DNA of 64,000 nt, taken from Nereocystis luetkeana. Its lineage: Eukaryota; Sar; Phaeophyceae; Laminariales; Laminariaceae. The notes under the pieces were generated by a model. The model saw nothing but the letters and a program-made list of their open reading frames with translations, had not been told where the DNA came from and did no database searches. Made by a program: the position numbers and the translations under genes. Shown piece by piece: positions 5,666-48,970 of this stretch. The stretch is from contig JARUPZ010000009.1 in the NCBI GenBank assembly GCA_031213475.1, forward strand, positions 3,435,001 to 3,499,000, written 5' to 3'. Numbering within the stretch: position 1 is the first letter of the stretch; each line of letters opens with the position of its first letter.

Positions 5666-5726
5666 CAGATCAGCGGCACAGCACTGGCGAAAGCTACTCT
5701 CAATCATATCCTTCATTCCCGTTTCT

Positions 5727-8094: not shown

Positions 8095-8479
8095 AATGAA
8101 AATTGCCCTGAATTGTATCAAACTATAATTTTGACAAACAAACCTAGAAAACGAATCCAATTCGATGTTGAATCAATATAGTCCAGAAAACAATCAAGTC
8201 GGTGATAATAGAAGTAGTTCAAGAGACCACTCCATTCGATGCAATTAAGCAGTTCATTCGATGCTTTACCCAGTAAAAATTGTAACGATGTTTCGTGCCC
8301 TATGTGCATACATTTATGTGCTTGCAAAAGTACTGCTATTGTATCTTGCACAAACCAAATTTACCATAGCCTTCAATCCTACATGGCTCGTTCAACCAGT
8401 GATAGTGCGAGGCCGAATGTTGACTATTGAAATAGCAAACTGATTCACACAAATAACAGTTTCACAAAACAACCACACA

Positions 8480-8621
8480 AACACAAAACACAGATGTTGA
8501 TGACACAAACATATAACACACGATGTTGACAACGACTTTTACATCAGAAGTTGCGGATGATGTCCAGAGCTGCTGGAAACGCGGCTTGGCAAAATGCTTG
8601 GTCCCTATGTCGGCGGGGTTG
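8480..8621 (-). pseudogene. Copia RNase H C-terminal end, cut off from the rest
   Basis: The minus strand reads DDNPADIGTKHFAKPRFQQL, the conserved C-terminal signature of copia RNase H, followed by a short tail. The body of the domain ends with KISTHYIPT near 10,208. The 1.59 kb between them is the inverted 5'UTR-gag segment, so one domain has been split by an insertion in opposite orientation. The junction lies close to 8,622. The stretch 8,095-8,479 between here and the purine tract is 3' untranslated sequence with no motif. Confidence 0.85.
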
Positions 8622-10207
8622 TCGTCTGAGCAGTGCATCTGACCCGTGTGCCTGCAGGACGTGGCCGGAGTTGACGCCTCCGACGCCACACACCGCAGCT
8701 TAGTCAACTGTGGTAGGTTGTACCTGTGTCTCGCGGAGCACAGAAGTCTGGGCGGATACTGGAGAGTGTCCGGAAGACGTGGATTGTGAGCTTCAGGGCT
8801 GCAATCCTGCAAAGCCTACATCCGGGTAGCAAATTAACACCCTGCACTGTCCCTTGCGCGTCGAGCTCACTCCGGTACTCGGGGCGTTATACGTGTGGGT
8901 AAAGCCTGCGCGCCTTGCGCGTAGCACCGGTCCCTGGTTAGGGTCGGGAAGCGATGGCGGAATCGTCGTTCAACGCGTTAAAACGCACCCTTGAATCCGT
9001 GGACCTTTGCAAAGAGCAACGGGATTCCAGGGAATGGCAGGCGAAGTTTCGCCAGGCAGTGGGGTTCCATTCACAGGAATTTCTCAAGATCCTCGACAAG
9101 GAGCCGTGCCCCTTGGGTACGGACACTGATGCTGTTGCAGCAACGGCGACATGGAAAGCCCGCAACAACCAGCTATACTCGCTGGTTTACTTCTCCACTA
9201 CCAGGTCGGCAAACATCACCACCAGACCTTTCCAAGCGAAGTCTGGGGGTGAGATGGGTGACGGGGCAGCGGCGTGGGCGGCCCTCAAGGCGCGTTTCGA
9301 CGGCAACACAAAGGAATCCCGTCGGGTCTGCAAGACACAGCTCCACGCCGCGAAGCTCCGGCCTGGCCAGAACGTCATCGACTTCCTGGCTAACATGGGC
9401 GACCTCAAGCTTCGCCTCGACGACATGGGGGAGCCCACCACCAATGAATCTTACGAGGATTTGGTGCTTAGTGCACTTACGCACTCCTCGGAGTACCGAT
9501 TCCTCCAGGACATGCACTACCGGAGCCCGTTTCCGGACGTGGAGGCGTTGAAGAAGACGGCTACAAGCTACTTCATCGACGCGCAGTCGAGGAAATCGTC
9601 GGGTCCTGCGGTGGTCGGCCGCGGAGCGGCGATGGCTGCAACAAGTACGGATCAGTGCCACAACTGCAAGGCTTACGGTCACTTCCAGCGAGACTGCCCT
9701 GCCCCGGCCAAGAAAATTAGGCCGAAGACAGGAAAGTCGTCGTGGAAAAAGAAGGGCAAGAAGGGTAGCGGCAGCGACCCTTCTCCAAAATGGAGCTCCT
9801 CCCACAAGACCGTCACGCACAGCGACAACGAGTGCAAGGCGCAAAAGGAGATCCAGTCGCTATCTGCGGGCCTGGCGCTTCTGCAGACACCGGGCCATGG
9901 TGGTTTCGCTCCCGTCGGGAGCGCACACCTGGCTGCAGCCCCTCAACAACCGGTGAGCGACGCTAGCTTCGCTCACGTCGGGAGCGCCCACATGGCCCCA
10001 CTTTCTTCTCCGGCACAGAACACTTTCGGGTACTCGTTCCACGCGGTGTCAGCGGCGGCCGCGCCGCCCCCCTGTACTGGGGTGATCACCGCGGGGCTCG
10101 CCGTCGCGCCGGCGGCGCCTGCGTCTGCTCCGGCGGAGTCACCGACCAAGCACCGTCTGTCGGAAGGGATCTTCCGAGCGCTCATGGTGACCACTCCCGA
10201 CCTGTAT
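8622..10207 (+). mobile_element. Inverted 5'UTR-gag segment inside the copia element
   Basis: Bases 8,622-9,292 are the reverse complement, with about ten mismatches, of 13,489-14,157. That region is the element's own 5' UTR and first 112 Gag codons. The copy continues past this into the rest of Gag, which the minus-strand body has lost. The left junction interrupts RNase H after its IPT residues, and the right junction resumes at DDNPADIG. The segment is therefore a 5' part of a sister element inserted backwards near the 3' end. Template switching during reverse transcription would explain this; recombination after insertion is an alternative. Confidence 0.85.
8954..10207 (+). pseudogene. 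gag: Copia Gag (in the inverted segment)
   Basis: The frame starts MAESSFNALKRTLESVDL at 8,954. It is the most complete Gag here, about 418 residues before it runs into inverted RNase H. Residues 70-180 carry the hydrophobic pattern of the copia Gag capsid domain (WKARNNQLYSLVYF, then WAALKARF and KLRLDDMG). A zinc knuckle, CHNCKAYGHFQRDC (C-x2-C-x4-H-x4-C), lies at 9,656-9,697 and is followed by a Lys-rich stretch and an Ala/Pro-rich tail. Gag would package element RNA. The frame continues to 10,690 only because the antisense of RNase H happens to be open. It is oriented opposite to pol, so no normal Gag-Pol could be made from this copy. Confidence 0.85.
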
Positions 10208-10790
10208 GGTGGGGATGTAGTGCGTCGAAATCTTCCCCTCGGTGACCAGCTCGCGGATGTAGAAGTAGCGGAGAGCAATGTGCTTGGTGCGAGAGCTGAA
10301 CAATCGGTTCCCGAGTGCAGGCAGAGTTGCAGTGTTGTCGCAGTGAAGTGGCACTTGAACGAACTGCTCCCCAAACCCAAGCTCCGTCATCATGTTCATG
10401 CAAAACACGGCTTCTTTCATCGCGAGTGCCGATGCCACCAGCTCAGCCTCCATGGTGGACATGGCAGTCAGGCTTTGAAGGCCCGACTTGAAGCTAATTG
10501 GTGCTCTGGCCAACATCATGATGTAACACGACGTCGACTTGCCGTTGTCCGGGTTGTTAGCCCAGGTAGCGTCCGAAAAGGCTGTGAGCTTAAAACCTCC
10601 CTTCTTGTACACTATGGTGAAGCTGGTGGACCCCGCCAGGTACCTCAGAATGTGCTTGGCCGCGACCATGTGCACCTTCGACGGTTTTGACATAGCACGA
10701 GAGAGCTGGCTCGAGCTGTACATTAGCAGTGTCTCCTCCGGCTGCTTAGTGGAGAGCTCGGGTCCGTAACCAGGGGTCAGCGTTGGCTTG
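10208..10790 (-). pseudogene. pol: Copia RNase H (body)
   Basis: The minus frame contains SQLSRAMSKPS, then TAFSDATWANN (first catalytic Asp), MSTMEAELVA (Glu) and LHCDNTATL (Asp), and ends KISTHYIPT. These are the copia RNase H landmarks in order. Upstream, the usual linker between RT and RNase H is shortened: a Glu-Glu-Thr-Leu segment runs straight into MYSSSQLSR. The C-terminal end is displaced to 8,480-8,621 by the inverted insertion. RNase H would remove template RNA during cDNA synthesis. Confidence 0.88.
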
Positions 10791-11640
10791 CAGTTCGCGA
10801 AGCCGAACCGCTACAAGGCGGACTTGGTGTATTCCTCCTGGTCTATTGTGAGTGTCTTCTCCGCCCGGTTCCGGGTGACCTGTAGCCCAAGTACACGCGA
10901 CACATAGCCCATGTCGGTCATCTTGAACCGGTCCATTAGTTGTGTCTTGATCTTCTCGATCACTTCGATGTTACCACCAATCACGAGTAGATCGTCCACG
11001 TAAAGTGTGAGGGTGATGGTGACACCGTTGTGCTTGTAAATGTATACGCACGTGTCAGATTTCAGCGGGACGAAACCGATGATCTTGAGGACGGGGTGAC
11101 GGGGTCAATGGCGTGAAACCAGTTCCCGGGGGTTTGTGCTAGCCCGTAGAGGCTTTTCTCCAGCCACATGACTAAAGGACCTCCATCCTTGTCCTTGGTC
11201 TCATATCCAGGGGGTTGCGCGACGAACACTTCCTCTTTAATGTCCGCATACAGGAAAGCTGTCTTGACATCAAGCTGAATGACTTCCCAGTCCATTTCCA
11301 CAGCTATAGCAAGCACCATCCGAACACTCTGCAGCCTGCAAACCGGAGCGAACGTGTTGCCGCAGTCTAGCCCATGTACTTGGTTCCAGCCTTGCGCGAC
11401 CACCCGCGCCTTGTAGGAATTATCGGCCTTACGCTTCAGAACCCACTTTGAGTTGATGATCTTCTGTCCCGGAGGAACAGTAGAGCGCGGAACGAGCTTG
11501 TAGACCTTGAGTTCATGCAGGCTGTCCATCTCCTTTTCCGCAGCAGCGCGCCAAAATGAAGCTTCCGGTGTTTTCATGGCGTCGTAGAACGATTTAGGGA
11601 TTCCCGGCTGCATAGTCTGCACAGCATATGCGTACTCTGC
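10791..11640 (-). pseudogene. pol: Copia reverse transcriptase (broken)
   Basis: Reading leftward, the RT starts with NSKWVLKRKADNSYKARVVA near 11,450. It continues with FAPVCRLQSVRMVLAIA and VIQLDVKTAFLYADI (motif A) and has SLYGLAQTPGNW near 11,130. Motif C, YVDDLLVIGG, is intact near 10,990 but in another frame. The break lies near 11,096-11,105, where ACGGGGTG is duplicated. A TAG lies near 10,815 in SAL-stop-RFGF. Catalytic residues survive, but frameshift and stop disable the copy. Confidence 0.88.
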
Positions 11641-11689
11641 GAACCGAGGCATGTCGTCCTTGTGGGCGACGTCCTGATACTCCCCCATC

Positions 11690-12879
11690 GTGGAGTATGC
11701 GAAATTTAGGCGTCGGAGTTCGCTGACAGTCCTGGCGTTAGGTGTATTAGCAGTAGCTCTGGTAACAGCCGGGGTAATCGCGCGGCTTCCGCGCGACGCA
11801 GACCCACCTCGCGAAGAACCACCACGCGAAGCAGATCCGGAAAGCAAAGATCCCGATGGCGAAGCACCCGATGGCGAAGCACCCGATGGCGAAACACCGG
11901 ATGGCGAAGCACCGGATGGGGAAGCACCGGATGGCGGAGGACCCTGCTCGGCAGGGCTTACTCCCCCAGGCGGAATAGATGGAGTAGTGGCTGCAGTATC
12001 AATGCCAATGTCGCGGTTGGTGACATCATGGATTTGCTCTATAAGTGTAGTTACTGACGGATATGCAGCGTCTATGTTAGGAGAAGGCCCATGGATGTCT
12101 ATGTTAGACGTGTGGTCGCGCACATCCCTTACCAGGTCGTCTCCTTCGTCATACGTAAACTCTCCGTCGTCAAAGCCACCGACCTCCAGGCGAGGCAGTG
12201 CTGAGGGCGTCTCAATCAAGACGACGTTTCGACTCTCCCTCACACGCTTCGTCGCCGGGTTGTAGATCCGGTAAGACTTGCTGTCCGTGCTGTACCCAAC
12301 CAGGCGTCCTTCCCAAGCACCCGACTCCAATTTCTTGGCGTGGGTTTCTACATGCACAAACGACCTAGCCCCGATCACCCGAAGGTTCCCGAGGTTAGCA
12401 TCCTTGCCGTAGAGTGCCTTGTAGGGCGTACCGTTGCTCAACGCCGCATGTGGGACCCGGTTGCTTAGGTAGACTGCCGCCTGCATCAACTCCCCCCAGA
12501 GAAAACTCGGGAGACCCGAATCAGTAAGCAGACAGCGCACGATGCCAGCAAGCGTCCGACCTGCCCGCTCGTTCGCGCCGATCTGCTGTGGGGTGTTGGT
12601 AGACGCAAACTCCAACTGGATTCCAATGTCGAGACAGTACTGGCGGAACTCCGAACTCGTAAACTCTGTACCTTTGTCCCCCTTCAGCCGGACCAAGCGC
12701 TCTTTGGACGGAATCACAACGGCCTTGTTGAACAGCTCGAGGGAGTCAACGGTGTTTGTCTTGCTCCTGATGAGGAATATCTCCTTCCACTTCGTCAGTT
12801 GGTCAACAAACTTGGTGACGAAAGCGTAACCGCCCAGTGCTAGAGGGCTGATAGGCCCCATGGTGTCTACGGTGACAAG
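11690..12879 (-). pseudogene. pol: Copia integrase and linker
   Basis: The minus frame reads VDTMGPISPLALGG near 12,870 (first catalytic Asp), GDKGTEFTSSEF (second Asp) and NTPQQIGANERAGRT (Glu), which gives a complete D,D-35-E set. SYRIYNPATKRVRESR follows in the C-terminal region. A linker then leads to RT, including a pentapeptide repeat coded near 11,860-11,945. A TAG near 12,880 interrupts the phrase just before VTVDTMG, between the zinc region and the catalytic core. Integrase would insert the cDNA into the genome. Confidence 0.9.
11855..11946 (-). repeat. 15-bp coding tandem repeat in the copia linker
   Basis: On the + strand the words CCGATGGCGAAGCAC and close variants repeat about six times. 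On the minus strand they encode consecutive Pro-Ser-Gly-Ala-Ser units between integrase and RT. Ser/Gly-rich linkers here are usual, but a near-perfect 15-bp array suggests recent slippage. Confidence 0.75.
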
Positions 12880-13489
12880 CTAAAAAGGTCGCTCCACGTC
12901 ATATAATGCTCGCTTCGGGTGGGGTTGTTGCTCACTTTTGCCGAAGGGGCAGACGTCGCACGGCGTCAGGTCACCTTTATAGTCAACGCCGCTGCACGGC
13001 GTCTGCCGCAGAACATTCATGCTGTTGCGATTGGCATGCCCCATCCGACGGTGCCACAGGTCGACCGATACCACCTTCAAGGCAGCACCGCCCTTAGGCT
13101 TCACGGAGACCCCTGCACGGCCCTCCAGCTCAACTTCGATGGAGCACATGGTCTTCCTGGTCGCTTCGTCAACACCCAGGTTCTTCATCGGCAGGACAAG
13201 GTCGTCTTTCTCCAACCGCGGGTTGTCCGGGTAGAACAGCGAAGCCATTCCTCCCAGCATTGCCTGAGAGACGGAAAAGAGGTTCGTCCCCAGCCCAGGC
13301 ACGACGATTGCTCGGAAGGAGAAATCCCGCTTGTTCCCACCGTCATCGGCAATGGCGCCGTTGATAGTGCCGGCAGCTACCCCGTGCAGGATGTGCTGGC
13401 CAGCCGCGACGATTTCGTGGGGAACCTGAAGAGATTCGTAGTCTCGCATCAAGGCAAGCAGTCCTGGAGTAAGCTCCGGGTCTACGAAG
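12880..13489 (-). pseudogene. pol: Copia protease remnant and integrase zinc region
   Basis: From 13,489 leftward the frame reads GFVDPELTPGLLALMRDYES, then GTNLFSVSQAMLGGMA, a typical C-terminal protease phrase of copia elements. Next come DLWHRRMGHANRNSM and CDVCPFGKSEQQ, the His-His-Cys-Cys pre-integrase region. The catalytic Asp-Ser/Thr-Gly of protease is not present, because the junction with the Gag N-terminus near 13,490 removes it. The frame ends at the TAG near 12,880. Confidence 0.85.
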
Positions 13490-13826
13490 CCTTGAGGGCC
13501 GCCCACGCCGCTGCCCCGTCACCCATCTCACCCCCAGACTTCGCTTGGAAAGGCCTGGTGGTGATGTTTGCCGACCCGGTAGTGGAGAAGTAAACCAGCG
13601 AGTATAGCTGGTTGTTGCGGGCTTTCCATGTCGCCGTTGCTGCAACAGCATCAGTGTCCGTACCCACGGGGCACGGCTCCCCGTCGAGGATATTGAGAAA
13701 TTCCTGTGAATGGAACCCCACTGCCTGGCGAAACTTCGCCTGCCATTCCCTGTAATCCCGTTGCTCTTTGCAAAGGCCCACGGATTCAAGGGTGCGTTTT
13801 AACGCGTTGAACGACGATTCCGCCAT
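13490..13826 (-). pseudogene. gag: Copia Gag N-terminal fragment
   Basis: The minus frame starts MAESSFNALKRTLESVGL at 13,826 and matches the + strand Gag at 8,954 with few changes. It runs for about 112 residues to WAALKA, then joins protease-region sequence directly. So Gag from the capsid through the zinc knuckle, and the start of protease, are deleted at this place. The residue differences from the inverted copy (for example LDGEPCPVG against LDKEPCPLG) show that the two come from slightly different element copies. Confidence 0.88.
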
Positions 13827-14699
13827 CGCTTCCCGACCCTAACCAGGGACCGGGGCTACGCGCAAGGCGCGCAGGCTTTACCCACACGTATAACGCCCCG
13901 AGTACCGGAGTGAGCTCGACGCGCAAGGGACAGTGCAGGGTGTTAATTTGCTACCCGGATGTAGGCTTTGCAGGATTGCAGCCCTGAAGCTCACAATCCA
14001 CGTCTTCCGGACACTCTCCAGTATCCGCCCAGACTTCTGTGCTCCGCGAGACACAGGTACAACCTACCACAGTTGACTAAGCTGCGGTGTGTGGCGTCGG
14101 AGGCGTCAACTCCGGCCACGTCCTGCAGGCACACGGGTCAGATGCACTGCTCAGACTTGTCGAATCCTCAATCTTACACACGCACCGCGAACCGGTACGA
14201 GAAAAATGGTCTCGGATGTAGACAGCACCTCGCGTGACGCCGCACGCGCAGGTAACGTGATGCGATTCACGTTGTATGGGACTGCCGCACCGGATGCAAA
14301 CAGCCCAGTCAGATCCTCACCCTTAACACACGCTACCAAGTCGGCACTCAGCAGGTGGAAGGTGTCTTGGACAGAGTACGCCTCGCGATACGACACGCGC
14401 AGGCGATTTAGGGAAATCGATTTGAACACACGCGGAACACCAGAGCGGTGCTCTGCACGCGCAAACCAACAACCCTGCACAACTCTATTCGCCGACCGGA
14501 ATCAACGCCTAGATGTTATGCTCCCGAATGCTTTACACACAGCAGTATCGTACCGAATGTGCAGCCGAGAACCCAGGTGATCAATCCGGATCCAAACAGC
14601 AGCCGGGTTGACTCAGTGTAGACCTCCAACAGGAAGCAGACTCCAGCAGAAGAAGAGACCTTCGCGAAAAAAATGTGTATGCACACTACTCGCCACGCT
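13827..14699 (-). other. Copia 5' untranslated region
   Basis: This lies between the primer-binding site and the Gag start codon on the minus strand. Bases 13,827-14,157 are repeated in reverse complement at 8,622-8,953. The remainder, 14,158-14,699, has no counterpart elsewhere in the window and no clear open frame. Confidence 0.7.
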
Positions 14700-14717
14700 C
14701 ACGAGGCTATCATAACC
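14700..14717 (-). promoter_or_regulatory. Probable primer-binding site of the copia element
   Basis: On the minus strand, GGTTATGATAGCC follows the 5' LTR directly. It partly resembles the initiator-tRNA-Met primer site used by many copia elements, but the match is imperfect, so the tRNA is not assigned. Position is the main support. Confidence 0.5.
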
Positions 14718-15167
14718 TGTTATTGGTATTGTGTGGCTATACCCTGGCAATGTAGGCGAAGGCTGTGTCCTCAGGGTAAGCCGAGTGATGACACCGGTCA
14801 CGCAGTGACCAGGAGTGCGATACTCCGGTGTGGTAGTGAGAAAAAGACGTGATAACACGTAAACACTGGCGCTTAGTTGGCCAACACACACAGATGAATT
14901 CCACAGAGAATGCAGGAGTCCAGATGACGGCAGCTTCCAGAGATGAACAGGCAGCTAGGTTACCATCACGATTCGTCGAGATCAACACGAGAGAGTGAGG
15001 TACTCGGTCCTACCAGCTCGGTCCTACCAGCAGATATAATACGAATGCTATTCCTCCGCATAATATACGTTACATGCCGAAACGGTACATAGACTACGAT
15101 CTACGATACAGTGCAGTGCTACTGAACATTGACTCATACATGGTCATGTGCTAACATTTCCATAACA
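14718..15167 (-). repeat. Copia 5' LTR (right end)
   Basis: 450 bp, bounded by TGTTAT and ATAACA. It equals the left LTR apart from three substitutions and a 12-bp insertion rich in AC near 14,882-14,895. The exact CATTC duplication follows at 15,168. Confidence 0.95.
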
Positions 15168-15172
15168 CATTC
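15168..15172. repeat. Target-site duplication, right copy (CATTC)
   Basis: Exact repeat of 7,643-7,647, directly outside the right LTR. Confidence 0.85.
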
Positions 15173-31333: not shown

Positions 31334-31337
31334 GTTG
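31334..31337. repeat. Probable target-site duplication, left (GTTG)
   Basis: GTTG directly before the left gypsy LTR is repeated at 45,124-45,127 after the right one. A 4- to 6-bp duplication is normal for Ty3/gypsy. Confidence 0.6.
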
Positions 31338-31616
31338 TGTTATGATACTGCTTGGTATGATGAGGTTGAAAGCCCGGTAATTTCCTGGGTTCTGGCACTG
31401 GGGTCGTATTTGTAGCACTTGGAAGTTGTATCTTAGGTGAAAAACCGGGGGTTCTCCAGAGAGGCACGAGCGTGGTCTCAGTCTCCGTCGTGCACGAAAG
31501 GAATAAAGTGGCTCTTCTATCTCTAAGCGAATATCAACGTGAGTACCAACGAGTGCCGGCTTAATAGGCAGACCTGTCCAGGGATACAAAGTGTCCCGCA
31601 GTCCGTGATCTTAACA
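31338..31616 (+). repeat. Gypsy 5' LTR
   Basis: 279 bp, TGTTA to TAACA. It aligns with 44,849-45,123 through phrases such as GGTTCTCCAGAGAGGCACGA, CGTCGTGCACGAAAGGA and GTGTCCCGCAGTCCGTGATC. There are many substitutions, so the element is old. Confidence 0.92.
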
Positions 31617-36235: not shown

Positions 36236-36447
36236 GTCGCGCAATAATTCGCTTATCATGAACGCCCACAAATCCATCCCTGACTGCCTCGACCCGTGGC
36301 TTGACACCGCTTCCAACTGCTGGCCTCTAGAAGAACACCACTTTGGTGAAGTTCACGCTGTTTGAATGTCCAGTCAGACCGAGGATCCCCCTCTCTAGAG
36401 CGGTCTACTTTCATCGTCCGCCCGCGCGGCCGGCCTCAGCGAAACCC

Positions 36448-36512
36448 GAGGCCGCTGTTTGAACTACCACGAAGACTCACACTCCCTCACACAGTGTAGG
36501 CATCTCTTTAAA
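36448..36512 (+). pseudogene. gag: Gypsy nucleocapsid zinc knuckle, one Cys lost
   Basis: A + frame reads CLNYHEDSHSLTQC. This fits the C-x2-C-x4-H-x4-C retroviral-type knuckle except that the second Cys is Tyr. The following frame (36,459-36,662) ends in a Lys/Arg/Asn-rich basic tail, as is usual after a nucleocapsid. It would bind element RNA. The stretch 36,236-36,447 before it has stops and no motif. Confidence 0.65.
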
Positions 36513-36662
36513 AACCTCAGCGGTATTCTCAACCCCGACCTCGGAACTAGCGGCAACGACGGAGCGGCGTTCCGTCGTCGGCAGGAACGCATGACCCGGC
36601 ACCGCCGGAAAAATAACTCACAGCCGAACAAGAACAACCACAAAAAAACAAGGCGACGTTGA

Positions 36663-37876
36663 GGCCATTCGAGTCGGCAGCATCACGGCCAGGGCCACAG
36701 CCAAGGTGATTGCTACAACACACACGCGAGACGAGGGCACCAACAGACTAACTCCGGCTACCACGGTGGTGGCTCGACCACCTCTGCCTCTACCACCGGG
36801 TCTCCCGCGTCGGGGGTTCGCTACGGGGCCTCGCATATTTCGGACGGTACCCCCAACGGACGCAATCCAGGCACTTTCCGCGTCGGTAACTGACGGCTCG
36901 ACGGCGCTTCGGTTCCTCCTTCCCGCCCGCCGCCAGCGTTGCCGGGAGAAAATACATTGATTTCACAAGATACACGCGTCTCAGGCTCGCTCAGCACTCA
37001 GCGTCGCCCTATATCGCCCCCCTCCCGCGCGTTACTCCGCTCTTCGGACCGACGCAGCGACTCAGCTCCACCGGTTCTACCGGGGAGCCCGCCCCTGGAA
37101 AGCCGCTCCCCTCACCCTGGGCACGAGAGCAGGCGAGATAAACGTTCCTCTCCCGAACCACGCACCGCGCGGCATCACGCGTGTCTCGCCGTCGCGTCGT
37201 TCTTTTCAGCGAGGGTGTCCCCCTCTTTCACCTCCCGGCCATGCGCTGGCGGCCGGATTGAGGTGCGGGAAGGAAAACACTCAAACCCCGGAATCTCGTT
37301 TGAAGCTCGACTCGGTGTTTCCTCGCAATACCGGTGGCCGTTAAACCTTTTTTCCTGTTAAGGAAGAGAGGGCAAGATTAGCTACCTCGTCCCCCGTCCC
37401 CACCAGATCTACCGGACGGAAGCCCTCTCCGGTGGACCCTTTGTTGCCCCCCACCGGAGCACCGTTCTTGAAGTAGTTTACAGGATCTGCAGGCCCTCTT
37501 TCGACTTCGCGCACGCTACTCCACGTGCGCCGCGCTCCTTCGGCTCCAGTGGAACAGGAAAACCTGGTACTGCCCTTCGAGCCAGTGGTGACTCCACAGC
37601 CTCCGGTCAGATCAACCGGACAGCATACCCTTTAAATTCGGAAGAATCGCAGCTCTCGTCAAGCAGAACGGGCTCAGAGCCCCCTGCCCCCTTTGATCCA
37701 GGACAGAGATCATCGGGCGCAGTAAGGGAACCTCCTGGCGATTTGTTTCCTACGGGAAATGGTGACACTGAGCCAGTATACGTGAAACCGGACTCGCGTC
37801 GTGCACCAGGGGCTCAGTGTTCTCAGAGAAGCACACTCTCCCAATAACACACCGCAACGGCGGCCACCGACGACTC
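36663..37876 (+). pseudogene. Gypsy linker between nucleocapsid and NADAR domain
   Basis: About 1.2 kb in which + frames are rich in Pro, Ser, Arg and Thr (for example 36,939-37,361) and broken by stops. No domain is recognised. It appears to be a disordered spacer of the polyprotein. Confidence 0.5.
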
Positions 37877-38275
37877 GACATCTTCGTCTTTGACCCTACG
37901 CTCGAATATTCAACGGAGCGGGTGGTACGTTTCTGGCAGCCCCCCTTCTATTTTTCGCAGTGGTCCCCCTCGTCTTTGTTGTCATTGGCGGAGTGACATA
38001 TTCCTGCGCGGAGCAGTATATGATGGCTGAAAAGGCTCCCCTTTTTCTGGACCACGACACAGCGGAGCGGATTATGGGCTCGCCAGACCCTCGTGAGAAG
38101 AAACGCCTCGTTCGAGGTGTGCATAACTTCCACTGCGCTATCTGGGACCACGTTCGGGGAGACGCCGTCCTTGCTGGCTTCTTTGCAAATGCACGCAGAA
38201 CCCGGTCATGAAGCAGCACCTATTGAGCACTGGCCACAAATGTTTGTCTGAAGCCAGCCCTTTTGACTCCGTGTG
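37877..38275 (+). pseudogene. NADAR (YbiA-like) domain, N-terminal half, inside gypsy Pol
   Basis: The frame begins DIFVFDPTLEYSTERVVRFW, continues FYFSQWSPSS, then shifts frame to GGVTYSCAEQYMMAEKAPLF. AERIMGSPDPREKK follows, then FHCAIWDHVRGDAVLAGFFA. A last frame has KQHLLSTGHKCLSEASPFDS. This order (F-S-x-W near the start, S/C-x-E-x-Y-x-x-x-x-K-A, SPDP, W-x5-R, LLSTG) matches the NADAR family. Its members, such as YbiA, act as N-glycosidases on ADP-ribose-type or riboflavin-pathway substrates. The domain stops at 38,275, the inversion breakpoint; its C-terminal half is on the minus strand at 40,770-40,898. At least two frameshifts also break it. Its role in the element is unknown. Confidence 0.82.
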
Positions 38276-38741
38276 AGGAACACGAGCCACCGCTGAACTC
38301 GCGCGTTGTGATCCCCTACTTTGCCGATGCTCTCAAGTGCCTTGTGGCCCCAAAAGATACGAAACTGTGTCCACTAAAGCTAGCCGCGCAGTCGCTTGAT
38401 AGCCCAGAAATGCTGCCCGCTTCGGGGTCCAACGGGATCAAGTGATAAGCAATCGGCCGTACCGAGCCGTCCAGTTATTCTTGTTCAAGCGCCACACCAA
38501 AACCGTCGATGCAGGCGTCACAGTAAACGCGAAAGGGGCGGGAGCCGTCGGCGACAGCGTCCCAGTCCGGGAAGACCAAATTTGGCGTGGCAGCGAGCTC
38601 GGCGAGGATCTGGCGAACGACCACTTCCATGACCGGCGTAAAGACGTACTTAACCCCCTTCCGGAGGAGGGCAGTGAGAGGCCGGATCCTTTTAGACAGG
38701 TCAGGCAGGAATTCGCGATAATATCCCACACCGCTCATCAA
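38276..38741 (-). pseudogene. pol: Gypsy RNase H and RT connection
   Basis: The minus frame reads MSGVGYYREFLPDLSKRIRP (RT connection). PFRVYCDACIDGFGVALEQE (first catalytic Asp region) follows. After a stop, other frames have LDPEAGSI, WAIKRLRG and HKALESIGKVGDHNARVQRW. These are the standard gypsy RNase H landmarks in order. The domain ends at the inversion breakpoint and its last residues lie on the + strand from 40,899. Confidence 0.88.
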
Positions 38742-39455
38742 TGCTCGGACCTACTTGACGTTCTTGGGCATGGGTATTTCCAACAAAGCCGAGACCTTTT
38801 CCGCATTGGGGCGTATACCCGCGGGCGAAAACACGTGGCCCAGAAAATTAGCGTCCGTGGCGCCGAAGCGAGCACTCGAGGGGGAAAGCTTGAAATTGTG
38901 TTTGCGCAGGCGTTCGAAAAGGGCTCGTATCGTCTTGACGTGGGCCGTCAGATCACAGTCGACGACGATCACATCCTCGAGGTAGGCCGCCACCTGTGCC
39001 AGGCCTTTGATGACTTCGTTAATCACTTTGACGAACCAGCCAAGCGAAGCACTGCAGCCTTGGGACATGACGAGCCACTCGTAGAGTCCCGCAAGAGTGC
39101 AAAATGCTGTGAGGGGGACGGTGTCTTTGTGCGAGGTAATATGGTGGAACGAGGAGACCACATAAAAAAGAGAATACACACGTCCCTTCCCCAGAAAATC
39201 GATAACTTGATCCACGCGATGAACAGGTAGCTGGCTGAGGTTGTTCATTGGCTTGAGTGTCTTGTAGTTCACTGTGATCCCAAGGCTTCCCGACTTCTTC
39301 AGGATGACCACCAGCGGGCTCGAGTACGGGGAGGTCGAGTGCTGAATCAGACCCGCCGCTAGATACTGATCCAAGGCCAGGATGGGGTTGATGCTGACCG
39401 GCCTGGACGTGACAGAAGGGCTTCCTTCCGGGACCGAAATCACGAAAGGCATCAA
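38742..39455 (-). pseudogene. pol: Gypsy reverse transcriptase
   Basis: The 234-residue minus frame contains AAGLIQHSTSPYSSPLVVIL, ITVNYKTLKPMNNLSQLPV and VYSLFYVVSSFHHITSHKDT. In the last of these, motif A has lost its catalytic Asp (Phe-Tyr where Phe-Asp is usual). Motif C is AAYLEDVIVVD, where the first Asp of YLDD has become Glu. HNFKLSPSSARFGATDANFL then follows. The order is that of Ty3/gypsy RT. Both catalytic changes indicate a dead enzyme. Confidence 0.9.
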
Positions 39456-39557
39456 CGAGCAGGAACCAAAATCAGATTTGGACTTCGAGAATACGTCCGG
39501 TAAATCGCAGAGAACATCCCCCAGTTGTTCGCTGGTCTCAGGGGTCCAGACCGTGCG

Positions 39558-40770
39558 TTAAAGGTTTACAGCCACCTCCCGCAGATGCAGCGGCAAACCT
39601 TCCCAGACGCCAAGGAACGAAACGCGCTGTTCTAGGCTCAAACGCTCAAGCAGTGCTGGCGAAGGCGAGGTTGGAGCTGCGACGGGGGAAGTTAAAACTG
39701 GCGAGACCGGAGCCACCTCAGAGAGCCCTGACGGAGGGCTGGGGGCTCGGTTGTCCTGATGCAAAACGTCCAGTGGCACGCTCAGCAGTGGGGCGTGGGC
39801 GACGCCGAGGATATCTCCAGGCTCGAGGGCCGCCACTCCAACGAGGGGAAGAACCTGTCACCCGGAGGCGACGAAGTGCTCCTGAACCGAGGGCAGGTCG
39901 GACAGGGGTATCAAGTCGACCAAGTAGTGCCCAGTGAGTGCCGGGGAGCCATCGCTTCGAACCAAACTAACCGCGAGGAGTTGAGAATCGTCAGACAAGG
40001 TAACGCCTGCCGGGCCCTCGTAGCGGAGGTGGTAACCTCTTCCCCAAGTGACGAGGTCGATGGCGCACAAGGACATGCCTGTCGGGGTGTGGTAAAGTAA
40101 CTCCAACTCGCCAAAAACGCGATTGTCTGACGGCCGAGGTGGGAGAGAGCGGTAGGAGCGGCTATTAAAACGCATCCAGCTGTCACGTCCCAGCAGTACA
40201 GCATGCTGCATCACTGAGGGGGGGACCACGCAGGCTCAAACTGCGAGGGACAACGTAGGGTCAATTTCTCGAAACAATTGGACGCTCAGGCGTACTCTCG
40301 TCGATGTCTTTAGAGGGGTCAATTCGCCAACCCCCTCCTAGGAACAAGGGGCGCATTGCTCCTGGCACGCGATGGATTCTGCACCAACCGTGAGCACGCG
40401 ATCCAAACCATCTTGCCGAATGAAGGTATGTGGGGAGCCAGTGCAAGAAGAGCAACGAAGCCAAAAGGTGCAAGAACGCCATCTCCGCTGTGGATTGTCA
40501 TTTTGGTTGTAAAAGAGGCGTAATCGAGAGTAACGGTAACCTCGACGCGGCAGGAGTCGTGTCCCGGCAGCGCGAGGGAGGAGTCGACACCAGTTGCGAC
40601 AGCCAAACCTCGGGACTGTGATCAGCCGGCGCGTCAGAGAAAAAGGTCGAAACCTCCAAGGGATGACCTAGGCAAGCGCGGGCCGCGGCCAAAGGGCCAG
40701 GCGGGGCTGGCGATATCTCATGTATTCCGTCAGTCATTGTTGGAGTATAAAATCGACGAGAAAAGGCGGG
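39558..40770 (-). pseudogene. pol: Gypsy protease region and linkers
   Basis: From right to left on the minus strand: a Pro/Ala-rich linker after the NADAR half; frames at 40,319-40,606 with LPGHDSCRVEVTVTLDY; and a frame at 39,858-40,229 containing SVMQHAVLLGRDSWMRF, a phrase like the C-terminal part of retropepsins (LLG-D). Finally a linker (39,558-39,836) has LSLEQRVSFLGVWEGLPLHL, leading to RT. I could not find the catalytic Asp-Thr/Ser-Gly, so protease activity is unproven. The assignment relies on position. Confidence 0.55.
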
Positions 40771-40898
40771 GGGTGCCAACCCGGCCTCATTTGAGCGGAG
40801 GCTGTCGCGAACGGCGGAAAGATATTTCCCGAGCAAATGTTTGCCACGCCACCGAGAGGGGTCTTGAGCCTCGGGGTCATCTGCCCGGAGACCGATGC
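40770..40898 (-). pseudogene. NADAR domain, C-terminal half (inverted)
   Basis: The minus strand reads IGLRADDPEAQDPSRWRGK followed by HLLGKYLSAVRDSLRS. W/IG-x-G-x5-D and the G-K-x-L-L-G-x-x-L-x-x-V-R pattern are the C-terminal signature of NADAR/YbiA proteins. It completes the half at 37,877-38,275 and is separated from it only by the inversion. Reading further along the minus strand leads into the protease region, so in the uninverted element the NADAR domain sat between Gag and protease. Confidence 0.82.
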
Positions 40899-41299
40899 AG
40901 GACAGCGCCAACGGCAATGCCTTTTTTCTCTCTCGCTTGCCAGAGCCGGCCACGGAACACGACCGCAGTGGATCTAGCAGCCTCACACCCGTAGAGGACG
41001 GGGGTATTTTTCTCGTCCAGTCGTGCGGGTTTCGCACTCGCTCTTCCCCGACCCCCGGTGTCGGTTTGAGTGGTCGGGTGCCCCGCATCGAATGTGCAGT
41101 TTTGGGTGGGCTGCCTTTCACCTCTTCGGGGTTTCGCGATTTTCGCACACACGGGCCACCTATGAGGATTGACGACCTCTCTGCTCCTTCAGGGACCTTC
41201 GTCGCTCGTGCCTCTGCTTCCGTCGCCTCCGTCGATCGCCGTCCTGGCTTGAGAGTTTGTTCACCTGCCGCCAACACCGCTTAGGCTTCTGTTTTCGTC
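40899..41299 (+). pseudogene. pol: Gypsy RNase H tail and spacer
   Basis: The + frame begins DSANGNAFFLSRLPEPATEH. G-S-A-N-x-N-A-D-x-L-S-R is the usual end of gypsy RNase H, with the Asp here changed to Phe. A Ser/Pro/Gly-rich spacer follows. It lies directly after the right breakpoint of the inversion. Confidence 0.75.
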
Positions 41300-42045: not shown

Positions 42046-43460
42046 CGTAGCTGCCGAATTTCAATTTGGTGATTCTACAGCGCGCTATTCAAACACCGAT
42101 TGGGCACGGGAACAACAGGCCGAGCCCACGTGCAACGCCGCCATGCGTTACATAGCCCTTGGCCGGAGGTAAATTATTTCAGCCGACTTTCGGTCGTGTT
42201 TCCCTTCCCACCAGCGCTCTCCTTTTTCGGGGGTTCAAGAGCTGGCTACCAAAGACCGTTTACACACTACCGACGCGGGCATCGTTTTACTCATCCGGCA
42301 GCTGTCCCCCTCCCCTGCGTCTGGCACGCAACGCCCATTGGGTCGTGCGGCCTGTTAATTGAATGACGAGCCTATTCGCATTTATGCGCCGCTCCTTATG
42401 CGCCCCTGGGTCATGCAGGCTTGCCATCTTACGGCTTCCTGACACATAGGAACTGCGCGCACCCCACGTATGCTCAAACGTTGCTACTGGTGAATCGGTA
42501 TCAGCATTTGCACCCGGCGGTGGCTAAGGAACTGCTTGATGCGCCAAGCACGGAAAACGTCGCGGCAGAACGTTCGGTGGCCCATCATCACATTTATATT
42601 GCCAGAAGGGCCCGGCATCGCCGTCAGCATCGATAATTTCGGCCCCCTCCCGGTGACGCCTCGAGGAAATACCTACATCTTGCTTTTCACGTATCGTTTC
42701 AGCCGACAAGCCGACATTTACGCCCTCACTGCGGCAGAGTTCATCGCTGAGGGCACGGCTAACATTCTTATCAACCGGTATATTCCGCTCTGGGGGTGCC
42801 CGCGCAGCATCCTCTCGCACAAGGGCCTCCAGTTCTGCTCCAAGCTGTTTTCGGGGTTCGAAAAATTGCCACCAGCTTCAACCACCCAAACGGCAACGGT
42901 GAGGTGGAACGTGTGAACCACACGATAGCCCAGATGCTGGCAATGGTCGTCAACGAGATCCAGAACAACTTGGATGAACAGCTCCCTCATGTCGAATTTG
43001 CGTACAACAATTTATTCAGTGCCGCCATGGGCTTGGCTCCCAACGAGGTACATACGGGCCGGCTTTGACGCCTCCCCCTCGCGATGTTTGAGCGTGCTGG
43101 AGTCGCCGGCAGCCAACATTTGACCCACGTCCACCTGGCCTATTCCGACTTGGCAATGAACCACCAGCAGTGCGGGTACGATATCGTTCGCGAACACCAC
43201 GCCCTCACTGTTGCCCGTGTGAACCACCGCAACTCCGCCCTCGCCGACGCTCTGCGTCCGGTGCCCAGATTTGACGTTGGCGGCTGGGCGTGGGTGTACA
43301 ATACGGCGGCCAACATCCGCCAGGGGGCAAAACCCGACACGGACGCCAAGGTCCTCAAGGCCAAACTCTTACTCAACTGGACAGGCCCCTACTAAGTTCT
43401 CGCAGTTGGCCCCTGCTCCGCAGCGGACACCCTGAACGGGTCTCTTCTTGGGGCAAAGCT
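42046..43460 (+). pseudogene. pol: Gypsy integrase
   Basis: In shifting + frames: TDWAREQQAEPTCNAAMRYI; then the zinc region (QACHLT, later a frame with QARKTSRQNVRWPI, where one zinc Cys is lost); then GIAVSIDNFGPLPVTPRGNT (first catalytic Asp) and NRYIPLWGCPRSILSHKGLQ. In the last, the second Asp of the usual SDNG has become His-Lys. HPNGNGEVERVNHTIAQMLA then carries the Glu, and HVEFAYNNLFSAAMGLAPNE follows. The loss of one catalytic Asp plus frameshifts makes it inactive. Integrase would insert the element's cDNA. Confidence 0.9.
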
Positions 43461-43469
43461 CCTGTATTT

Positions 43470-43830
43470 GGGTCTTCCTTCGATATGCCCGGCGTGGATG
43501 CTCGTCGGCGCGTTTAAAGTTCAAAGCCACACGCCCTGTGCCAACCCCCCCCGACCGTGTAGAGCTGCCGAAGTATTTGCCAGCGGGATTGAGGCAGTAC
43601 GTGCTCAACAAGTTCTCCAAGAATTTCCCCCCGTACCACGTCACCCAGGACGACGTCTCGACACCTCTTCACCGACTCGAAGTGGAAAAGATTACCGGAC
43701 ACCAATCAGTTCGAGGTCGAGGTGGCGTCATCGCAGTGATGTACGAGACGCACTAAACTGGACTTTCCCGTCCATCCTGGGAACGGGAAATGGACCTTCA
43801 GCTTTCTCGACACGCCTGTTTGCGCTACTG
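43470..43830 (+). pseudogene. pol: Chromodomain-like C-terminal region of integrase
   Basis: A + frame has LHRLEVEKITGHQSVRGRGG then VMYETH, a stop, and TGLSRPSWEREMDLQLSRH. The spacing E-V-E-K-I ... W-x-G-x6-W-E is that of a chromodomain, in which the stop replaces the expected Trp. Chromodomains on gypsy integrases can direct insertion to chosen chromatin. Assignment is by pattern only. Confidence 0.55.
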
Positions 43831-43859
43831 AGCCGGCACCCCGAACCAGCATCGTCAAA

Positions 43860-44270
43860 ACAACAGTCTGTACCGCCGAATGACAATCGGCGCGGCACAA
43901 CGGGAACTCTCTCGGAATAACGGCCAGCGGTTTCTGGCGTCCGGCTATGGCTGCGTCTCGCACGCCGACTGGCTCCGCCGATACTGCAACACCGTGCTTC
44001 ACAACAGGGCCCATTTTGGGCACAAGGGCGACGACGTGCTGTGGTGGCTCGGGAAAATCAGCGCGACTACGCCGACGGATGGAGTATATTTAGTTCGAGT
44101 TTTGGACGACCCGGGACCGATCAAGCATCCTCTTTCTCCGGCGCACTACACGACTTCGACGAGAGCTGTACGTGGCTCGTGGTGTCTACAAATTCACTTG
44201 GCTAGCTCGTTTGCACGGGGGGTCCAGCGTAACGTAGACGAATCTCGAGGTGCCGCCGTGGATAGCTGAT
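43860..44270 (+). pseudogene. Extra C-terminal domain after the chromodomain
   Basis: A + frame of 129 residues contains VLWWLGKISATTPTDGVYLV followed by RVLDDPGPIKHPLSP. The W-L-G-K-I ... Y-L-V-R-x-L-D-D pattern resembles small barrel (Tudor- or SH3-like) domains. This is a guess from pattern. It ends at TGA near 44,267. From 44,271 to 44,848 there is T-rich 3' UTR with no motif and only a weak purine stretch before the LTR. Confidence 0.4.
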
Positions 44271-44848
44271 TTCCGCTTCCCGGCTGCGCTCGATTTGTTT
44301 TTCTTGACGTTTTCCTGGATTTTGGGCGGTGGTCTTTTTAGTTGTTGACGTCTTCCGCGTTTTCAGGTTGCGATATTTTTTTTTTTTTCTGGCAGGTGTG
44401 TTCCTGGGTTGTTTGTTTGAGTGTTTTCTTGAGCTTGGTTGGGGATATGTTTTGCGCATTCTGTCCTGCGTACCCCCCCGCTCTGTGTCGCGACTGGTTT
44501 GGGTAATCGTGCTACTCATTTATGGCACAAGACACGTTTCCCGAGTAGTAGGTTGGGATTTTGATGTCTCTTGACATCTTCCGTGATATTTTTCTCCTCG
44601 TCTTCTTTTAAGTTCCCTCTTCACTTTCCTTGCATCTTCCTCGCCCCTCCCTGTCGCGGGTGACATGGAGATGGTTTTCGTTGACGATTCCATCCTGGCT
44701 CTTAAGGCTACGCTTTCCTTCCATTTTTTTTACGTACTTTGACGGCCTCGTTGCCTTGCCGCATCTTCGACTCATGTACTAGTTGTGGAATCGGGGTTTC
44801 CATGAATTTCCCATAATTCTGCATATACGGCTCATCAGAGTGGGCTAG

Positions 44849-45123
44849 TGTTTCGATACTACTCTGTATGAGGTTGAAATCCCAGTAATTACCTGAGTCT
44901 GGCACTGGGATCGTATTTGGAGTACTTGGAAGGCGTATCTTAGGTTGAAAACCAGGGGTTCTCCAGAGAGGCACGAGCGTGGTCTCAGCCTCCGTCGTGC
45001 ACGAAAGGATTAAAGTGGCTATTCCATCTTTAAGCGAACATCAACGTGAGTACCAACGATCGCCGGCTTAATAAGCAGACCTGTCCAAGGATACAAAGTG
45101 TCCCGCAGTCCGTGATCTTAAGA
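44849..45123 (+). repeat. Gypsy 3' LTR
   Basis: 275 bp, TGTTT to TTAAGA, aligned with the 5' LTR along its length. The last bases differ from the expected TAACA. The GTTG duplication follows at 45,124. Confidence 0.9.
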
Positions 45124-45127
45124 GTTG

Positions 45128-45506: not shown

Positions 45507-45808
45507 ATCCGACGCGGTTTTCGACCGTTCGACTAGTTATCACCGTTCGCGGTTGGCGCTTCGCGCTCACGGCCTCCCGCGGGTCCTGCGGAGAGCTCAT
45601 TGCGTGTCTGCACCCTGTGCGTGGTCTGCACCTTGTGGGTGGGAAGAGGGTGCCAAATGGAATCATATCCGGGTTGGATCGGGTCCGAGTTGGATCAGGA
45701 GAGCCAAGCATGGTCATGTTTTGTTTTCCCGCTGTATTGGGAATTATTCCGAGGAATTTGTTTTCCACCATAAATATGGAGGACTCTACTACTAGAACCA
45801 GTATGTCC
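45507..45808. other. No recognised feature
   Basis: About 300 bp between the tRNA-like unit and the second copia element; a tandem GGTTGGATCGGGT-like phrase near 45,672-45,698 only. Confidence 0.4.
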
Positions 45809-46160
45809 TGTTTGTGATATGCGGTAGCTTGATACAGGTCTACGGATATTGGGGGTTTCATGTATTGTGGGGTTTCGTATAATGTATCGGGAGATTATTT
45901 AGTATGCCTCGTGGATGAAGGGATGGAGCTGATCCTCCGGGAGCAGTCGCTGATGATGATAATGATACGGCCCAGGCTTTGATGATAACGATACTGCCTG
46001 TCTATATGTGAGTGGTGCAGTCGATGACAATCTTGGTGTGGCTTACCCCCTGTGTGTGGTGTTTGTGGTGAGGTCTCTGACAGATCGGTATTGATCCAAC
46101 CTGGTGTGTGTTGTGTTTGGTTTATTGTAACTAGTATTTCATTTGCTCTTCCTCAACGAT
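45809..46160 (+). repeat. Copia 2 left LTR
   Basis: Aligns with 48,613-48,970. Shared phrases are GGTAGCTTGATACAG, TGTGGGGTTTCGTAT, GATGATAACGATACTGCCTG followed by TCTATATGTGAGTG, and CAACCTGGTGTGTGTTGTGT. It starts TGTTTGTG; the right edge is approximate. Confidence 0.85.
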
Positions 46161-47081
46161 CATGAGGTCGACCACGCGTGTATCACGTGCACGCGGACGA
46201 CAGCTCCTATGTTCAAACACGATATCGCTATGGTCATCGCCGATCAGCCTCCGCCGCACATGCCGGCCCCTGAACTGCCTTCATGCCCTGCGAGTGAGTT
46301 GGTAACGCCCGACTCATATCGTGAAGCGTGCGAGGATGAACACGGAAACGTGTGGTTCCATGCCATGGACACCGAATTCGACGTTCTGTACCGCGCGAAG
46401 ACGTTCGGTGCTGAGGGGGATGAGAAAGATAGAGGCACATAGCAACGAAACGGAATCAACGTGATCTCTGCTAAGTGGGCTTATTCTTGGAAGGTTAACG
46501 AATTTGTCAAAGTAATGCGGGCAAAGGTCAGGTTAGTAGCGAGGGGCTTTGGACAGCGTGCAGGAGTTGACTATTTCGAGACTTATTCCGTTGCGAGCAG
46601 TTGTTTGCTCGCTGCCGTCGCGTGTGGGATGGGATTGGATTTGTGCCATTTTGATGCAGAGCAGGCGTTTGTCCAGTCACAGTTGAGCGAGGACGTCTCC
46701 ATGCGCCTCCGCAAGGGGTGCGGGCCGATGTCCGCTAAAGTGGTCAAGTTATGTCGCAGCCTGTATGGTTTGAAGCAGGCATCGCGGCAATGGCATCATC
46801 ACTTTGTACGTGGTATGAGGGGTCTTGGTTTTGAGCAGTGTGAGGCTGATGCGTGTGTCATGCGTTTGGTGGAGGCGGGGGCCGTTTCTATCGTAGTAGT
46901 GGTGCATGTGGATGACATATTTGCGATGGGGCTTAATAGTAGGTCTTACCAGTTTTGTGAGGACCTGAACCAGTTCGTTCTTATCAACAACCTGGGGGAG
47001 TTGCGATGGTACGCAGGTTGCCGATTCTCTCGAGACAGGGATGCAGGATTTATTGACGATATCACAGCGGGTTTTCGCTGA
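46143..47081 (+). pseudogene. pol: Copia 2 reverse transcriptase
   Basis: A frame (46,143-46,442) with YREACEDEHGNVWFHAMDTE is the copia pre-RT linker. It ends at a TAG, after which RT begins: ISAKWAYSWKVNEFVKVMRA, ARGFGQRAGVDYFETYSVAS and LCHFDAEQAFVQSQL (motif A). SLYGLKQASRQWHHHF follows, then VVVHVDDIFAMG (motif C, both Asp present). Near 47,045 a small insertion shifts the frame; the protein resumes with LTISQRVFAESTVAKFGV. The core active-site residues survive but the ORF does not. Confidence 0.9.
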
Positions 47082-47856
47082 AAGCACCGTAGCGAAGTTC
47101 GGTGTCACCCGCGGCAAGTGCATTGCTGCGGTGGTTGACCTAAGGCTTGACGTATTTGATAAGGATGAACCAGACGTTGATGAGCCTTTTTGGTCGTTAG
47201 TAGGTCATTTGATGTGGCTGGCGAATCAGACCCGCCCGGAAATCCTTATGGCGGTTCGGGCGGTGGCAAGATACACTGCAGCACCAAAGGTATTGCATTG
47301 GCAGGCATCGTTGCACATCCTTATGTACATCAAATCTACGAGTACGTACGGTATTACGTTTCAGAGGGGTCTGAGTAATAGAGTTCAGTTAGAGTTGTAC
47401 ATGGATGCGGACTACGCGCACGAGGCCAATGACCGGAGGTCTGTCTCTAGTGGAGTTATCATGTGCGCTGGTGCCTGTGTATCGTTCTACTCTAGGACGC
47501 AGAAATCCATTACCCTCTCGTCCACGGAGGTAGAGTATGTGGCGATGGCCACCGGTTTCCGTGATGCGATTATCATGCGTTATCTCTGGAGTTTTATTTT
47601 CCCGGACCGCGATGTTGGATGTACCACGGTGAAGGAAGATAACCAGGGGGCGATGCATTTGGCGAAAAACCCTGTGACCACTCCGAACAGTAAGCACATT
47701 GATGTCCGCCATCACTTCCTTCGGGAACGTGTTGCTAATGGGGAGTTCGAGATTGTCCGCGTATCGTCGGCATTGCAGCATGCTGACTTCCTCACGAAGC
47801 CTTTGCCCACGGAAGCGTTCCGCTTTCATCGCAACTTTGTGATGAATTTGGGGTGA
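47044..47856 (+). pseudogene. pol: Copia 2 RNase H
   Basis: The 271-residue + frame overlaps the end of RT across the frameshift. It contains FWSLVGHLMWLANQTRPEIL, LYMDADYAHEANDRRSVSSG (first Asp), LSSTEVEYVAMATGFRDAI (Glu) and VKEDNQGAMHLAKNP (Asp). HIDVRHHFLRERV and HADFLTKPLP follow. The domain itself is uninterrupted and complete to its stop at 47,854. It is the best-preserved enzyme domain in the window. Confidence 0.92.
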
Positions 47857-48420
47857 TTTTTTTTCAGGTAGTTCTTGGTTTCGGATATTTTCGGGTATTA
47901 TTGGGTGATGGGAACGGGGAAGAGTGATTTTTAGGGAATTGGAAAACAGATTGGGATAGACTAATACGTTGATGTTAAAACGACAAAAGGGTATGTCGAT
48001 GGTCTTGATGAATTGTGCCGTACCCGTTGGCTATTGGTTAAGTATGTACAACGTACTGGTGACCCAAACCTACTAGTATGCATAGTACCTTTTGGATTCA
48101 GATGCATTATGTTGTTGACTTTTGCATACTCCCGGGGTGAACACCCATTAATAGCAGGGGGTCTATTATAGTTCGATTTAATATGTCCTACATTAGAGAC
48201 GTTCTGTTGTTCTGCTCTTCCAGAGTGCAAAATAGGGGGGCCGATGCTATCTGGCGGTACGATATCTATCTGAAGGCGGTGTCATTGATTTGGTTTGTTT
48301 GATAGTTTTACCAACATACTTGCGTTTGTTGGATTTTTTCCCTTCTTAGAGTTTATGTCTTGATATATTTAGTGGGTCTCCGCTGGGATCGAGATTGAGA
48401 GATTTGGTATAGGGATTGAG
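47857..48420 (+). other. Copia 2 3' untranslated region
   Basis: About 560 bp with no open frame of interest. An AAAATAGGGGGGCC stretch at 48,228 looks like a second purine tract. Confidence 0.5.
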
Positions 48421-48560
48421 GTTTTACATTGGCGATTGTGAAGTGTGGATTTTCGATTGCCGTTTTACTTTGGCAACGATGAAGGATGGGATTTGGGGTC
48501 GCCGCTTTATCTTGGCAATGACCTCTTCATGGAATTTGGGGCTTGCCGTTTTACCTGACA
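48421..48560 (+). repeat. 42-bp tandem repeat before the copia 2 purine tract
   Basis: GTTTTACATTGG, GTTTTACTTTGGCAA, GCTTTATCTTGGCAA and GTTTTACCTGACAA start units at 48,421, 48,462, 48,504 and 48,548 (spacing 41, 42 and 44 bp). Each ends with GATTT-GGG-TTGCC-like sequence. It lies in the 3' UTR of the element. Confidence 0.7.
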
Positions 48561-48599
48561 ACTGGTGATAAGATATTCGAGACCTATCGTATCGTGCAC

Positions 48600-48612
48600 G
48601 GAATAGGGGGGC
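48600..48612 (+). promoter_or_regulatory. Probable polypurine tract of copia 2
   Basis: GGAATAGGGGGGC lies directly before the right LTR, the correct position for the plus-strand primer of a + oriented element. Confidence 0.6.
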
Positions 48613-48970
48613 TGTTAGTGGTAAACGGTAGCTTGATACAGATCTACGGATATTGGAGGTTTCCTATATTGTGGGGTTTCGTATTATGTATCGGGGCATT
48701 ATTTAGTTTGCCTCGTGGATGGAGGGATGGAGCTGCTCTTCCGGGAACAGTCGCTGATGTGAATGATACGGCTCAGGCATCGATGATAACGATACTGCCT
48801 GTCTATATGTGAGTGCTGCAGTCGGTGACAATCTTGGTGCGGCTTACCTCCTGTTACTGTGTATGGTTTACGTGGTGGGGTCTCGGACTGGACGGTATTG
48901 ACCCAACCTGGTGTGTGTTGTGTTTGGCCTATTAATTATTGTATAAGTATTTCATTTTCTCTCCTCGACC
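48613..48970 (+). repeat. Copia 2 right LTR
   Basis: Direct repeat of 45,809-46,160, starting TGTTAGTG, with numerous substitutions and small indels. The outer edge is approximate. Confidence 0.85.

Follow-up and report, generated by a model that had tools for sequence, protein, structure and literature searches.

A NADAR domain is a regular part of the Pol polyprotein in two diverged families of Ty3/Gypsy LTR retrotransposons in the 465-Mb genome (1,987 contigs) that contains the window, the stretch of 64,000 nt analysed here (positions 3435001–3499000 of its contig). The arrangement is real and not new. A first-pass annotation had known of no NADAR-bearing gypsy layout, and the same arrangement was published in 2025 for the brown alga Ectocarpus, in which NADAR-carrying Gypsy elements such as Gypsy-12_Ec32 were reported (PMC12477816). 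New here are a second genome, evidence of constraint on the domain, two diverged families, and apparent RT-less derivatives. The Ectocarpus report is thus no single-genome oddity, as NADAR elements are abundant in a second, larger genome, where some copies are nearly identical and have a long open Pol. The use of an N-glycosidase or ADP-ribosyl hydrolase to a retrotransposon thereby becomes a testable question.

The Element in the Window

A Ty3/Gypsy LTR element occupies the middle of the window (Table 1). Its LTRs are 91% identical over a 255-base core and carry GTTG on both outer sides (31334–31337 and 45124–45127; a 4-base flank judged by eye). The LTRs flank the unit, including both NADAR pieces, as the first-pass annotation had held, and the components follow the Ty3/Gypsy order protease–RT–RNase H–integrase, with protease–RT–RNase H read in sister copies and the order in the window assigned by colinearity and similarity. 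Pfam matches are strong for RVT_1 and RNase H, weak for the protease, and weak for rve, which was matched in one family B copy (L176); the window's integrase and C-terminal region is 54–62% identical to the Pol 3′ end of that copy. No relevant Pfam match was obtained for the Gag, linker, and integrase pieces of the window, with neither Gag nor zinc-knuckle families matched, and an Rfam search of the window returned no match. The DTG motif of four ENA proteins (P0002, P0003, P0016, and P0021), which in these shares one ORF with the NADAR tail and the linker, is not intact in the window's protease region as judged by eye. The element is an old, disabled copy of family A, whose Pol has the order N-terminal region–NADAR–linker–protease–RT–RNase H–integrase.

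Table 1. Features of the NADAR-bearing Ty3/Gypsy element (window coordinates)
Feature	Position	Strand	Basis
5′ LTR (TGTT...AACA)	31338–31616	+	Repeat comparison; ends judged by eye
End of Gag (putative), ORF with zinc-knuckle-like motif	36399–36662	+	By eye
Pol N-terminal part (putative)	37057–37863	+	ENA relatives P0035, P0037, P0044, P0047
NADAR first part, through E125 and D130 (Phytophthora numbering)	37886–38275	+	Pfam, ENA relatives, sister DNA
Inverted internal segment (NADAR tail, linker, protease region, RT, RNase H region)	38276–40898	−	Sister alignments
RNase H region	38272–38750	−	Pfam below cut-off; colinearity with sisters
Reverse transcriptase (RVT_1, E 1.2e-12)	38751–39557	−	Pfam and RT search
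Linker and protease region, frameshifted	40188–40779	−	ENA relatives
NADAR C-terminal tail	about 40780–40898	−	Pfam (below cut-off), ENA relatives
Integrase and C-terminal region	42674–44284	+	Similarity to family B copy L176
3′ LTR	44849–45123	+	Repeat comparison; ends judged by eye

A NADAR Domain Split by Inversion

The first-pass annotation had assigned 37877–40898 to a NADAR domain with one half on each strand. The two halves do form one NADAR, located at the ends of that span; most of what lies between is the inverted protease–RT–RNase H block. Against the Pfam NADAR profile (PF08719), the plus-strand piece (37894–38211; profile positions 32–98) scores above the cut-off with E 2.8e-15, and the minus-strand piece (ORF 40498–41280; profile positions 131–163) scores below it (E 0.0013; 19.4 vs 35.1 bits), so the profile search proposed in the annotation supports the first half and falls short for the second. 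The minus piece is secured as NADAR because single ENA proteins and six sister DNA copies span both pieces; the proteins P0006, P0011, and P0027 map to plus-strand positions 38020–38279 and then to the minus strand from 40896. Chance similarity as the source of the NADAR call is ruled out by the Pfam match together with the sister alignments. In its present state the plus-strand part is spread over three frames (37886–37975, 37948–38190, and 38187–38279). It retains E43, K50, R79, W89, E125, and D130, has C at the D86 position, and lacks W133, which falls at the inversion junction. TIGR02464 scored below cut-off on the window NADAR piece, and a PDB sequence search with both pieces gave no matches.

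The halves lie on opposite strands because a 2.6-kb internal inversion cut the domain. Of the 13 copies of family A whose NADAR is open, six (L116, L118, L119, L120, L139, and L155) were compared with the window by alignment. All six are colinear: they match the plus strand up to 38275 and then the minus strand from 40898 downward. Four sisters match the minus strand as far as 38272, and the sequence fetched for the other two (L116 and L118) stops short of it; at the left junction the alignments overlap by 4 bases (38272–38275), and 2 bases of sister sequence are skipped. The segment 38276–40898 of the window copy is inverted relative to these sisters, none of which carries the inversion. An assembly artefact, with which the inverted piece of another LTR element nearby in the window would be compatible, is an improbable explanation, given that both junctions agree to the base in 6/6 sisters and that divergence from the sisters is much the same inside the segment as in its flanks (identity mostly 88–91%).

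A different inversion junction is seen in related elements, in which an ENA protein found on 5 contigs (P0032) has antisense RT joined straight to the NADAR start.

NADAR as a Regular Pol Domain in Two Families

At least 150 NADAR matches were found in the genome (those scored of 778 candidates, a lower bound), and 48 of the 150 listed lie in open frames of at least 2,000 aa. From these, 63 distinct copies, ranked by NADAR score, were fetched. Linker/protease sequence follows downstream on the same strand in 59 of them (39 in the same frame, 20 downstream), lies on the opposite strand in one, and is absent from three; RT follows on the same strand in 51 (25 in the same frame, 26 downstream) and is absent from 12. 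Where the upstream frame is longest, NADAR starts about 1.03–1.1 kb past the frame opening and therefore belongs to the N-terminal part of Pol. Among ENA proteins, the minus piece (NADAR tail and linker) is matched by 33 and the stretch immediately preceding NADAR by 21; in P0035, P0037, P0044, and P0047 this upstream stretch and the NADAR start share one ORF.

The linkage was also examined from the RT side, with 143 matches scored of 1,428 candidates. A listed NADAR lies 0.66–1.82 kb upstream on the same strand for 96 of the 143, comprising 79 of the 97 RT matches at 63–70% identity and 17 of the 46 at ≥72%. The other 47, the window's own inverted RT among them, have no NADAR among the matches listed. 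The sister comparison suggested by the first-pass annotation came out in favour of a regular domain with catalytic residues kept and a low pN/pS in family B (see below), attached to at least 96 of the 143 listed RTs. Two diverged families of this genome regularly carry NADAR in Pol. The annotation's placement of NADAR between Gag and protease of a Ty3/Gypsy element is supported, and so is its view that the element captured a NADAR gene: the domain is in frame in better-preserved sisters, with active-site positions kept and under constraint. That a host NADAR gene inserted only once, into a single element, the outcome that would have spoken against capture, has practically no chance of being correct: linker/protease and RT follow on the same strand in 59 and 51 of the 63 copies, upstream region and NADAR start share an ORF in ENA proteins, and this linkage rejects it for the present genome and the copies examined.

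The families were separated by RT identity to the window (A, ≥74%; B, 60–74%). Family A, the window's own, is decayed, and family B consists of near-identical copies, many with open frames of 2,000–2,428 aa, the upper figure being the longest Pol frame. Of the open NADARs, 54 in all, 13 are from A, 36 from B, and 5 from copies without usable RT. NADAR identity has a median of 91.5% within A and 98% within B, compared with 45–53% (median 49%) between the families. The C-terminus of a family B Pol (L176:903–1667) contains a chromodomain-like stretch recognized by eye, with no Pfam or PDB match and a single-sequence model of mean pLDDT 33; a C-terminal chromodomain on integrase is described for Gypsy-12_Ec32 (PMC12477816). 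A second, Tudor-like stretch lies beyond it in L176 (by eye; no Pfam match).

Eight of the 63 copies (L145, L152, L158, L164, L170, L171, L174, and L175) have no RT match, and their protease-to-RNase H distance is about 1.5 kb shorter than in L118; their structure suggests an RT-less derivative propagated in trans. Six copies (L141, L152, L170, L171, L173, and L174), four of them RT-less, are all interrupted by a stop at codon 12 of NADAR, which suggests descent from one broken source; NADAR is therefore not required in cis for every copy made.

Active Site, Fold, and Selection

Active-site positions were transferred from the Phytophthora NADAR via an alignment to 8bau and are numbered accordingly (PMC11543638). 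Eight of them, E43, K50, R79, W89, R93, E125, D130, and W133, are ADP-ribose contacts or catalytic positions according to that paper. They were scored in the 54 open domains, nine of the 63 copies having been left out (eight with internal stops, one too short). K50, W89, R93, and W133 are kept in all 54, and E43, R79, E125, and D130 in 53, conservation that is inflated by the choice of copies on NADAR score. K75 and F84 are kept in 52 of 54; at the D86 contact 38 domains have E, 15 have C, and one has Y. At the E125 position 53 have glutamate and one has lysine; the window copy also has glutamate. A PF08719 match and glutamate, not D or H, at this position speak for the YbiA subfamily. Among ENA relatives, 32 of 55 proteins, some of them broken copies, could be aligned to NADARs from prokaryotes or viral contigs, and the fractions kept among those covering each site are 4/5 (E43), 8/8 (K50), 7/8 (R79), 6/8 (W89), 20/25 (E125), 21/25 (D130), and 23/28 (W133).

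A structure model of P0032 (mean pLDDT 73; ≥90 for residues 71–160 and 201–210, 51–84 for residues 161–200, and <50 for the antisense N-terminus) matched best to 8bau, the Phytophthora NADAR with ADP-ribose (E 2.5e-5), followed by E. coli YbiA 2b3w (E 5.9e-3). TIGR02464 scored above its cut-off in one copy of each family (150–151 vs 73.7 bits) and in P0027.

Pooled pN/pS in 22 family B copies is 0.347 for NADAR (codon-bootstrap range 0.14–0.88), 0.476 for the protease region (0.17–1.45), 0.52 for RT (0.38–0.70), 1.05 for the spacer (0.62–1.9), and 1.34 for the linker (0.55–5.35), values drawn from close copies (pS 0.01–0.03) with 30 variable NADAR codons and overlapping pairs, and from a ranking on NADAR score that may lower the NADAR figure. 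The stretch upstream of NADAR has a pN/pS of 0.61 (11 copies). NADAR lies below the linker in 97.9% and below the spacer in 97.6% of bootstrap draws; it lies below RT in only 79.8% and below the protease in 68.5%, and is thus indistinguishable from these two. In young copies the NADAR protein changes less than the neighbouring spacers, and in the copies sampled the domain is constrained about as much as RT. Family B pairs at dS ≥0.02 give 0.325 for NADAR, and family A gives 0.56–0.57. Between A and B the median dN/dS is 0.18, at saturated dS (median 2.77).

Possible Functions of the Pol-Borne NADAR

The reading that we tentatively favour, at slightly less than an even chance, is that of a working hydrolase that would cleave an N-glycosidic bond and, within the particle of the element, would remain part of Pol or be freed from it. 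Its first-choice substrate would be base-linked ADP-ribose on the RNA or cDNA of the element, where this modification could otherwise block reverse transcription. Base-linked ADP-ribose is put first because NADARs remove it from guanosine: PMC11125620 describes hydrolysis of guanosine–ADP-ribose by every NADAR/YbiA protein tried in that assay, and PMC11543638 describes its removal by an oomycete NADAR. Counting against an eraser, NADARs outside DarT operons are reported to protect cells inefficiently against DarT1 (PMC11125620).

NADAR could instead be an RNA- or protein-binding or RNA-processing module acting on the element transcript, an unlikely reading. Processing of RNA intermediates was proposed by the authors of PMC12477816, and a Roniviridae NADAR is mentioned as associated with RNA repair in PMC11287256. 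Nematode SL1 trans-splicing requires SNA-3, a protein that has three NADAR domains and is impaired or inactivated when conserved NADAR residues are mutated; the authors of that work leave a catalytic role open (PMC9303266). The ADP-ribose pocket positions kept almost throughout argue instead for small-molecule or base-linked chemistry.

Slightly less credible is cleavage of free nucleotide-like metabolites (riboflavin-pathway intermediates or NAD-/ADP-ribose-derived compounds), for example to clean the particle's nucleotide pool. Such a substrate fits the TIGR02464 match (riboflavin-intermediate N-glycosidase), strong in one copy of each family, equally well; against it, a domain placed so regularly within Pol probably serves the particle. 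As an extension of the favoured base-linked hydrolase, and in line with a use suggested by the first-pass annotation, a particle-borne eraser might guard the element's RNA or cDNA against ADP-ribosylation by a host defence; we regard such a counterpart of DarT1–NADAR in a retroelement as doubtful.

Relation to Known Systems and Origin

The closest known system is the Ectocarpus NADAR-Gypsy lineage, which likewise holds NADAR within a Gypsy element, in a genome of about 197 Mb (our own division of 55.2 Mb by 28%, PMC12477816) as against 465 Mb here. Two families with about 49% NADAR identity, and an inverted and broken window copy, distinguish the present case from that lineage, which was compared by description only. 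YbiA-type NADARs (PF08719, TIGR02464) share the profile, fold, E125 glutamate, and pocket positions, whereas here the domain is embedded in a retrotransposon polyprotein. NADARs also occur in a retrotransposon in Crassostrea gigas, in ORF1 of Tx1 LINEs (PMC12477816), which are, however, non-LTR elements with divergent NADARs by description. The DarT1–NADAR (DarTG1) antitoxin, a known guanine–ADP-ribose hydrolase of the same superfamily, has aspartate at the E125 position (PMC11543638), in contrast to the glutamate found here. No further report of NADAR in a retrotransposon was found in the openly accessible literature, as judged by listing.

A quick tree was built from 68 rows. Of 107 prokaryote and viral-contig loci 103 were kept, the 27 viral-contig NADAR loci used serving as comparison only, and thinning reduced the 103 domains to 44; the remaining rows are 19 open copies (of 54) and 5 proteins from ENA. 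The Gypsy NADARs need two changes on this tree, and a single clade was not rejected by the AU test on the same rows (p 0.72). ENA domains are 39–64% identical to the best prokaryote or viral-contig NADARs over aligned parts; as eukaryote genomes are few or absent in these collections, no donor is named. An RT search of the viral contigs returned 7 stretches and no relative.

Other Repeats in the Window

A Copia element on the minus strand (7647–15168; repeats 7647–8086 and 14717–15168, 97%) is, like the NADAR-bearing one, an LTR element with an inverted piece inside it. It holds an inverted, 98.7% copy of part of itself (8624–9291 vs 14156–13489) and a gag ORF on the plus strand (8942–10690). 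Positions 45808–48966, where direct repeats (45808–46154 and 48612–48966, 86%) surround a Copia-type RT (RVT_2, ORF 46443–47081), are probably a third LTR element. A long tandem array with an 8-base period, open in several frames, occupies 5724–6388.
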